Both the position numbers and the translations under genes were made by a program. Positions 25,955-26,704 of a DNA stretch of 64,000 nucleotides are shown here, one piece after another; position 1 is the stretch's first letter; each line of letters opens with the position of its first letter. Source of the DNA: Dromiciops gliroides (Eukaryota; Chordata; Mammalia; Microbiotheria; Microbiotheriidae); contig NC_057862.1 in assembly GCF_019393635.1 (NCBI RefSeq), positions 480,814,669 through 480,878,668 on the forward strand, read 5' to 3'. The notes beneath the pieces were generated by a model. The model searched no databases and was not told the DNA's origin. It was given only the letters and a program-made list of their open reading frames with translations.

Positions 25955-26704
25955 TTAAGCTGCTAGAGTTTGGGGTATGCCACATTGTTTTAACTGGTTC
26001 CCCAATTCTCTGCATGCCAAAGTGGCAGGGGTTTCTGAATTGTCATTGATCTTTCTAATGCTGTCATAATGTTCTTTATGGTAGAAAATGTGGAGTTCTC
26101 TAACATCAGTTTTGTCTGTGCCACTGATTTTCAATAAAGGCTGATTTAACTGATGAACTACCACATTCAGGTGATGCTGCTTAGCAAATGCTACAGTCAT
26201 ATCATTTCCTCCCCACTTTCCAAATTTCTTTAATTCTTCAACATATTCTTCAAAAGGGGAGTCATTTACTCTAAAAGACTCAAACTCTTGTCTATGGTTA
26301 ATCATGTAAGAAGCAGCTTCTTGTCTATGTCTGAGATGATTTCTACAGTGACCTTCTAGCTGGTCTGCTGAAGCCCTAAAAAGGCAATTTCCATCTCCTG
26401 ATACTTTACAAAGACTGAGTCCCAAAGCATTTAACTGATCAGTGGGATTATCAAATGGGAACTGCCTATTTCCTCTGAACTCTCTTTGCTCTTTAACAGT
26501 TGCTATCGTTAGGGTTTTTAGCTCTTTAGCGTTTACCTCAGGTCTATCTGAAATCTCTTCACCTATGAATGGTGCAGGCTTTACATGAGAGCAATGAATC
26601 CATGAGTCTTTTTCACCAATTTTAATGGCAGTAGGAGTTGTCAATAATACCTGAAAACGTCCTTCCCAGGCAGGTTGGGTTCCACTGGTTCTCTGAAAAT
26701 TCTG
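25955..26704 (-). CDS. Retroviral integrase C-terminus fused in frame to an OTU deubiquitinase domain
   Basis: A 249-codon open frame runs from just after a TAA (26,705-26,707) to a stop at 25,955. Numbering below starts at the TTG codon at 26,644. Residues -20 to 25 have the W-E-G-x-F-x-V, T-x-x-T-A-x-K and W-I-H-x-S-H-V-K-P pattern of the integrase C-terminal domain of gammaretrovirus-like ERVs. After a linker (26-69), residues 70-203 form an OTU cysteine-protease domain. It has GDGNCLFRA with Asp84 and Cys87, then HRQEAASYM, GGNDMTVAFA, VVHQLN, and ELHIFYHKEHYDSIRKINDN with the probable catalytic His192.

Motif spacing and wording are closest, in my judgement, to cellular OTUD3 (ubiquitin chain cleavage). 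The domain is continuous without introns, implying capture from an mRNA. No in-frame ATG precedes Cys87 (first Met is residue 114), so it would be made as a Pol extension or from a spliced leader. No inactivating change is seen in the OTU part. The OTU call is firm. The viral-capture reading is inference. Confidence 0.85.
   Translation of the reverse strand, partial: QNFQRTSGTQPAWEGRFQVLLTTPTAIKIGEKDSWIHCSHVKPAPFIGEEISDRPEVNAKELKTLTIATVKEQREFRGNRQFPFDNPTDQLNALGLSLCKVSGDGNCLFRASADQLEGHCRNHLRHRQEAASYMINHRQEFESFRVNDSPFEEYVEELKKFGKWGGNDMTVAFAKQHHLNVVVHQLNQPLLKISGTDKTDVRELHIFYHKEHYDSIRKINDNSETPATLACRELGNQLKQCGIPQTLAA

Follow-up and report, generated by a model that had tools for sequence, protein, structure and literature searches.

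An OTUD3-like OTU domain fused to the integrase of a gammaretrovirus-like endogenous retrovirus in the marsupial Dromiciops gliroides

The genome of the marsupial Dromiciops gliroides contains, at more than a thousand places, a gammaretrovirus-like endogenous retrovirus (ERV) whose Pol protein ends in an OTU domain of the OTUD3 type, and purifying selection appears to have kept this domain across diverged lineages as the element spread. The element, here called pol-OTU, was noticed in a stretch of 64,000 nucleotides (the window; assembly GCF_019393635.1, contig NC_057862.1, positions 480,814,669 to 480,878,668), to which all positions below refer and on whose minus strand it lies. The 3' end of the fusion is a single open frame of 249 codons followed by a TAA stop (25955..26704, stop at 25955-25957), in which a C-terminal integrase domain of the murine leukaemia virus (MLV) type (residues 8-44, 26573..26683; Pfam MLVIN_C, E 1.3e-11; integrase 2m9u, E 4.3e-8) is followed by a linker (residues 46-87, 26444..26569) and an OTUD3-like OTU domain, a deubiquitinase by homology (residues 88-229, 26018..26443). 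Matches to Pfam and to known structures and sequences thus bear out an earlier note, made from the sequence alone, that had read the frame as an integrase C-terminus joined to an intact OTU domain; a plus-strand reading of the same frame was rejected. Asp104 and Cys107 of the D-G-N-C motif (26384..26395, with the Cys codon at 26384-26386) and His212 of the E-H-Y-D motif (26069..26071) correspond to the catalytic residues of the OTU family.

Copies and anatomy of the element

The genome from which the window comes (3,303,199,800 bases in 17 contigs) was searched with the 249-residue sequence, and 150 places were scored out of 3725 candidates, the window's own among them. All 150 carry the same integrase-OTU frame, which is covered over residues 1-249 in 149 places and 2-249 in one, and 141 are free of internal stops by hand count. 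An open frame of 1392 amino acids (aa) is given for 56 of these matches, one of which (L009) has a stop inside the match. Shorter frame lengths (330, 426, 342, 344 and 439 aa) also recur, and these could represent subfamilies that share a deletion or frameshift in pol yet keep the OTU domain. A 26-base pattern for the OTU active site, allowing up to two mismatches, was found at 698 forward and 695 reverse places, 1393 altogether, compared with none on either strand for the reversed pattern used as control; since the pattern detects only 47 of 102 OTU loci that were fetched, 1393 is a minimum. Of the first 30 loci, 27 have a stop-free frame and all 30 keep both motifs. Homology to copy L012 extends across the full 1.5 kb upstream in 23 of them, some with frame breaks or stops in that upstream part, and is lost at differing points in the other seven, which include the window copy.

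Older relatives were collected with Antechinus OTUD3 as the genome query, for which 102 matches were scored out of 21786 candidates; those listed are single-piece OTUD3-like stretches, mostly of residues 31-196, with 53-72% identity. Combining the first 30 loci with 72 of these 102 matches (12, then 60) gave a set of 102 loci. An integrase C-terminus lies upstream of the OTU domain in the same orientation in 96 of them, and was not detected there in the remaining six (L038, L071, L074, L095, L108 and L109). From integrase start to OTU start, the young lineage has an offset of 261 bases and most older copies one of 237; the two domains do not share a frame in seven of the 96, one of which, L034, is far off. 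The Cys is kept in 98, the Asp in 100 and the His in 101 of the 102 OTU copies, and 83 of the 102 OTU copies and 78 of 93 integrase-domain copies are stop-free.

The architecture of the provirus was assembled from separate pieces of several copies and reads, in order, long terminal repeat (LTR), gag, an in-frame TGA, protease-reverse transcriptase (RT)-RNase H-integrase-OTU, about 1.8 kb, and LTR, with a length of about 8.7 kb estimated from the distances between parts. In both copies examined for it, RNase H, H2C2 and rve occupy the 500 codons directly upstream. Gag and pol share one frame that is split by a single TGA in all three pieces covering the border, as expected of read-through in gammaretroviruses. 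Of three gag pieces, two exceed the cut-off for Gag_p30 (E 1.3e-22 and 5.3e-10) and the third, L044, reaches only E 0.013; the retroviral protease (RVP) and RT (RVT_1) families were each recognised in one piece. The RT piece of one copy has its best matches in the Protein Data Bank (PDB) at E 1.6e-118 to 7e-117, entries that we take to be RTs of MLV and of xenotropic MLV-related virus; a named RT fragment of Moloney MLV is also among the matches (E 2.4e-54), and the next group, Pr125Pol (1.7e-43), is presumably foamy viral. Both LTR ends (TG...CA) and an identical 4-bp target duplication are present in 8/8 copies examined. The complement of the primer-binding site ends in CCA and resembles tRNA-Arg.

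In eight LTR pairs, 265-565 bases were aligned, of which 0-5 differ (99.0-100% identity, ignoring one indel each in four of the eight pairs and with L012 and L020 aligned in part). Taking the neutral rate of mammals as about 2e-9 per site per year, these pairs date from approximately zero to 2.5 million years ago. Two LTR types occur beside the same pol-OTU, one of about 446 bases that starts with TGTAATGATTG and one of about 549 bases that starts with TGTGGTAAAA (L051 and L052 of copy L013 compared with L053, L062 and others), which suggests LTR exchange between sublineages. No Pfam env family was found in three frames after the OTU domain in the window copy (about 1.8 kb), L012 (1.5 kb) or L035 (1.44 kb); we therefore describe pol-OTU as a gamma-like ERV without recognisable env and not as an infectious gammaretrovirus.

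The element is thus a gammaretrovirus-like (class I) ERV of a marsupial in which OTU forms the C-terminal part of Pol. The carrier proposed in the earlier note is supported by the MLV-type RT and integrase, the gag-TGA-pol arrangement and the 4-bp duplications. As to its question whether other copies share the junction together with full gag-pol, an integrase C-terminus precedes OTU in 96 of the 102 loci and the order from gag to OTU is recovered from pieces; the window copy is a fragment, and L021, discussed below, carries a deletion.

Origin of the OTU domain and selection on it

The viral domain has the OTU fold, and its closest sequence is OTUD3, as judged by Pfam and by structure and protein matches. 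The host OTUD3 gene was located on contig C3 at about 614.30-614.32 Mb, with exons encoding residues 1-71, 72-120, 121-157/8, 158/9 to about 197, and the rest; all 71 residues of its exon 1 are identical in Antechinus OTUD3, and Petaurus OTUD3 agrees with it in that stretch as well. The viral domain corresponds to OTUD3 from about residue 33 to residue 196, that is, to host exons 1-4 with the three introns missing, and ends near the border of exons 4 and 5. Capture of the gene with its introns was therefore rejected; the intronless domain is as recombination with a spliced mRNA would leave it, and a spliced OTUD3 mRNA was thus captured. Together with the integrase domain upstream of nearly all copies, this supports the view, put forward in the earlier note, that an OTUD3 mRNA was placed at the 3' end of pol.

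In a tree with five ERV rows the ERV branch was long (1.06) and the donor was not placed. In a larger tree, built from 19 hand-picked ERV rows of the 102 loci and 27 OTUD3 rows, all 19 ERV rows form one clade (support 100/98), drawn beside all tetrapod OTUD3 rows, and a single capture is thereby supported. None of five vertebrate donor groups was rejected with these rows (approximately unbiased test, p 0.25-0.38), so that the comparison with OTUD3 called for by the earlier note recovers one ERV clade without singling out its donor. In older copies the second half of the linker resembles OTUD3 from about residue 33 (AKERRNRTEP): it reads AKEQRNRTEPRG, similar to AKERRNRTEPGAG of Petaurus and Antechinus OTUD3, and the same stretch is RNRPESGG in pig and RNRTELSAG in opossum. 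When an older copy was used to search, the OTUD3 proteins of Petaurus and Antechinus scored highest among the best 120 of 214 proteins, with rodents within about 1 bit. The marsupial-like linker and these two best scores, ahead by that single bit, suggest an Australian marsupial as donor.

Selection was examined on 93 loci in which both domains could be aligned, 82 of them distinct, by fitting branch lengths separately to codon positions 1+2 and to position 3 on one fixed tree, with 60 codon bootstraps. For the OTU domain the ratio of positions 1+2 to position 3 is 0.39 (0.29-0.51) on internal branches and 0.83 (0.65-1.07) on terminal branches, the internal value being the lower in 60 of 60 bootstraps. 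The integrase domain follows the same pattern (0.24 internal, 1.02 terminal), and the OTU ratios, internal and terminal, are 0.29 and 0.51 in 26 young copies and 0.41 and 0.81 in 56 older ones. The ratio of nonsynonymous to synonymous substitutions (dN/dS) was also determined between hand-picked groups of the 102 loci (six young, nine old and three intermediate), as the earlier note had proposed for the OTU part, and points the same way. For OTU it is 0.19 between young and old (0.11-0.32 by codon bootstrap on a 3x4 subset), 0.17 between young and intermediate and 0.38 between intermediate and old; for the integrase domain the corresponding values are 0.10, 0.12 and 0.44. Synonymous divergence of the viral OTU from host OTUD3 is saturated. 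The simple reading of these results is that the OTU domain is needed while the element replicates and decays after insertion.

Possible roles of the OTU domain

At the C-terminus of Pol, the OTU domain should travel with integrase, and since no env family was recognised, the constraint on it probably lies inside the cell, which favours an intracellular role. Read-through of the gag stop would produce the domain as the C-terminal part of Gag-Pol and it would be packaged together with integrase. As a deubiquitinase acting on integrase and on the pre-integration complex, it would clear away the host ubiquitin chains by which integrase would be directed to the proteasome, and more copies would reach integration. 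According to a review (PMC10144533), retroviral integrase is prone to proteasomal degradation, driven by TRIM33 in the case of human immunodeficiency virus 1 (HIV-1), and Ku70 deubiquitinates and protects the integrases of HIV-1 and MLV. For an integrase subject to such degradation, a deubiquitinase of its own would be a direct solution, and integrase and OTU are paired in Ginger1 transposases too (PMC2836005); we give roughly an even chance to the proposition that the onboard OTU domain protects integrase in cis from ubiquitin-dependent loss.

Several points weigh against this proposition or the evidence beneath it. The deubiquitinase activity is predicted from homology and the conserved catalytic residues, the viral protease may free OTU from integrase, and selection on the domain means that it matters without saying what it cuts. 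A stop lies inside the OTU domain in 19 of the 102 copies. Only 15 of 79 inner branches of the selection tree have support of 95 or more, and the copies were collected by similarity, which favours an intact, conserved OTU; this bias would be expected to act mainly on terminal branches and so to shrink, not create, the contrast between internal and terminal ratios. Finally, copy L021 has the 1392-aa frame yet has suffered a deletion from the start of the 5' LTR into the end of gag (on its 5' side, pieces L048 and L065, about 45 bases of LTR start run straight into the end of gag, and none of the L021 pieces yielded a Gag domain), so a long frame is not equivalent to a complete provirus.

Of the other explanations, the one that survives best, although we consider it somewhat unlikely, has the OTU domain acting in trans as counter-defence: packaged in the particle, or freed by the protease, it would remove ubiquitin or ISG15 from restriction factors or innate sensors in the manner of the OTU proteases of nairoviruses. 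A role in assembly or maturation, in which OTU would take ubiquitin off Gag or Gag-Pol as particles form, or would stabilise the Pol precursor, is distinctly less probable. It would agree with the place of the domain in the Pol frame and with the free ubiquitin and mono-ubiquitinated Gag described from retroviral particles (PMC10144533), but nothing in the present data speaks for it specifically and a function directed at Gag would not need fusion to integrase. It is very improbable that the domain is a passenger without function, picked up by chance and multiplied as the element spread. Captured host sequences can ride in ERVs, and the terminal ratio of 0.83 indicates that single copies decay after insertion, but the young-old dN/dS of 0.19, an internal ratio below the terminal one in every bootstrap, and the low internal ratios of the young and older sets taken separately are all at odds with it. 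A one-off processed OTUD3 retrocopy beside a pol fragment, or an assembly artefact, either of which the earlier note had allowed for and which the window copy, being truncated and lying beside an inverted LTR, might by itself suggest, is ruled out for practical purposes by the recurrence of the junction (150/150 scored matches, 96/102 loci) and by 1393 active-site places against none for the control.

The retention by selection of such a domain on integrase suggests that ubiquitin on integrase or on the pre-integration complex brakes retroviral spread enough to merit a dedicated antidote, and the many natural copies make the question of ubiquitin and integrase testable as a natural experiment.

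The window copy and known systems

The window copy itself is a truncated, non-autonomous fragment of the pol-OTU family. Between the OTU stop and the polypurine tract lie about 1.8 kb (24158..25954) in which no Pfam family was found in three frames, and no other pol domain was detected by Pfam on the minus strand between 23401 and 33298. A polypurine-tract-like run (24146..24157), of a kind also present 5' of the 3' LTR in the other copies inspected, precedes the 3' LTR (23572..24145, TGTGG...CACA), whose boundaries were derived from LTR pairs and whose aligned blocks are about 90% identical to the LTRs of other copies. The only Met codons of the 249-codon frame lie 3' of the catalytic Cys codon, so that this locus by itself probably does not yield the enzyme. 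At 24466-24594, within the 3' non-coding part of the element, there is a short degenerate tandem repeat, CTGGATTCTGGACTCTGGTCTGGA, and a 94-base direct repeat, 93% identical, at 20561-20654 and 29865-29958, about 9.3 kb apart.

Upstream, the 3' end and LTR start of an oppositely oriented related element (26699..26812, plus strand; followed by eye to about 27.14 kb) meet the OTU element inside the integrase C-terminus. Homology of the window copy to other copies begins at 26707 and the opposed element at 26699, an overlap of nine bases. A fragment of integrase and OTU that has a 3' LTR of its own is thus placed head to head with a relative's LTR end. An integrase region between two LTRs of opposite orientation is the arrangement that has been suggested as a possible origin of the terminal inverted repeats of Ginger1 transposons (PMC2836005).

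No relative was found in a scan of IMG/VR, NCBIfam has no family for the three proteins submitted, and no pol-OTU fusion protein is present among the best 120 of 286 matches (137-436 aa), the 7 of 7 (605-1927 aa) or the best 120 of 214 (324-1030 aa). Genome annotation often masks ERVs, which makes this absence weak evidence. Seven proteins of 777-1196 aa (P0121-P0127, source ena) combine an OTUD3-like OTU domain with long extensions in which no other Pfam family is recognised. Among the open-licence papers that the searches listed, preprints excluded and judged by titles and the beginnings of abstracts, none reports a retrovirus with an OTU domain.

Compared with cellular OTUD3, the ERV version is missing the stretch from residue 1 to about 32 as well as everything beyond about residue 196; it is also intronless and fused to integrase. 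The viral OTU proteases of nairoviruses belong to unrelated viruses, share 13-24% identity among the matches listed and are not of the OTUD3 type. HERV-L and MERV-L are env-less ERVs with a further enzyme after integrase in pol; there, in contrast to pol-OTU, the enzyme is a dUTPase and the elements are of class III.

A survey of marsupial ERVs (Harding et al. 2024; PMC11334065) distinguishes eight clades, including an env-less one amplified in dasyurids, and neither OTU nor ubiquitin is mentioned in its main text. Its MEGrv 1-3 resemble pol-OTU in being marsupial elements of LTR-gag-pro-pol structure with class I type RT and integrase and near-identical LTRs; the pol-OTU family may correspond to MEGrv 2 (8.5 kb, LTR 486) or to another clade. 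MEBrv 3 is akin in its loss of env and its dasyurid amplification, but is betaretrovirus-like. Host mRNA was also taken up by CrocERV29 (KIT-ligand) and CrocERV31 (nectin3), with purifying selection reported (PMC4299795), and nectin3 was acquired at the expense of env, a further likeness. The captured KIT-ligand, however, is an open reading frame (ORF) between pol and env, whereas the domain captured by pol-OTU continues the integrase frame and belongs to the ubiquitin system. The pol-OTU family likewise combines intronless host sequence, purifying selection and many copies, the marks of an ERV with a captured gene. Capture of host genes by retroviruses is known, mostly as separate ORFs; our searches gave no other case in which integrase is fused to a ubiquitin-system enzyme domain that selection has maintained.

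A parallel to the fusion itself comes from the Ginger1 transposases, in which a Gypsy-type integrase is joined to OTU or Ulp1 and, as in pol-OTU, an integrase with a GPY/F-type C-terminus is followed by OTU in one protein (PMC2836005). Ginger1 is nonetheless a DNA transposon with terminal inverted repeats, whereas pol-OTU has LTRs, RT and gag; the OTU-bearing Ginger1 families tabulated in that paper are from Hydra, Aplysia and pea aphid, and their OTU domain is not shown there to derive from OTUD3. We tentatively propose, with less confidence than for protection of integrase as such, that integrase and a deubiquitinase acting in cis were paired here independently of Ginger1, that the pairing shields the pre-integration complex, and that it may have helped an env-less retrovirus to reach high copy number in marsupials.
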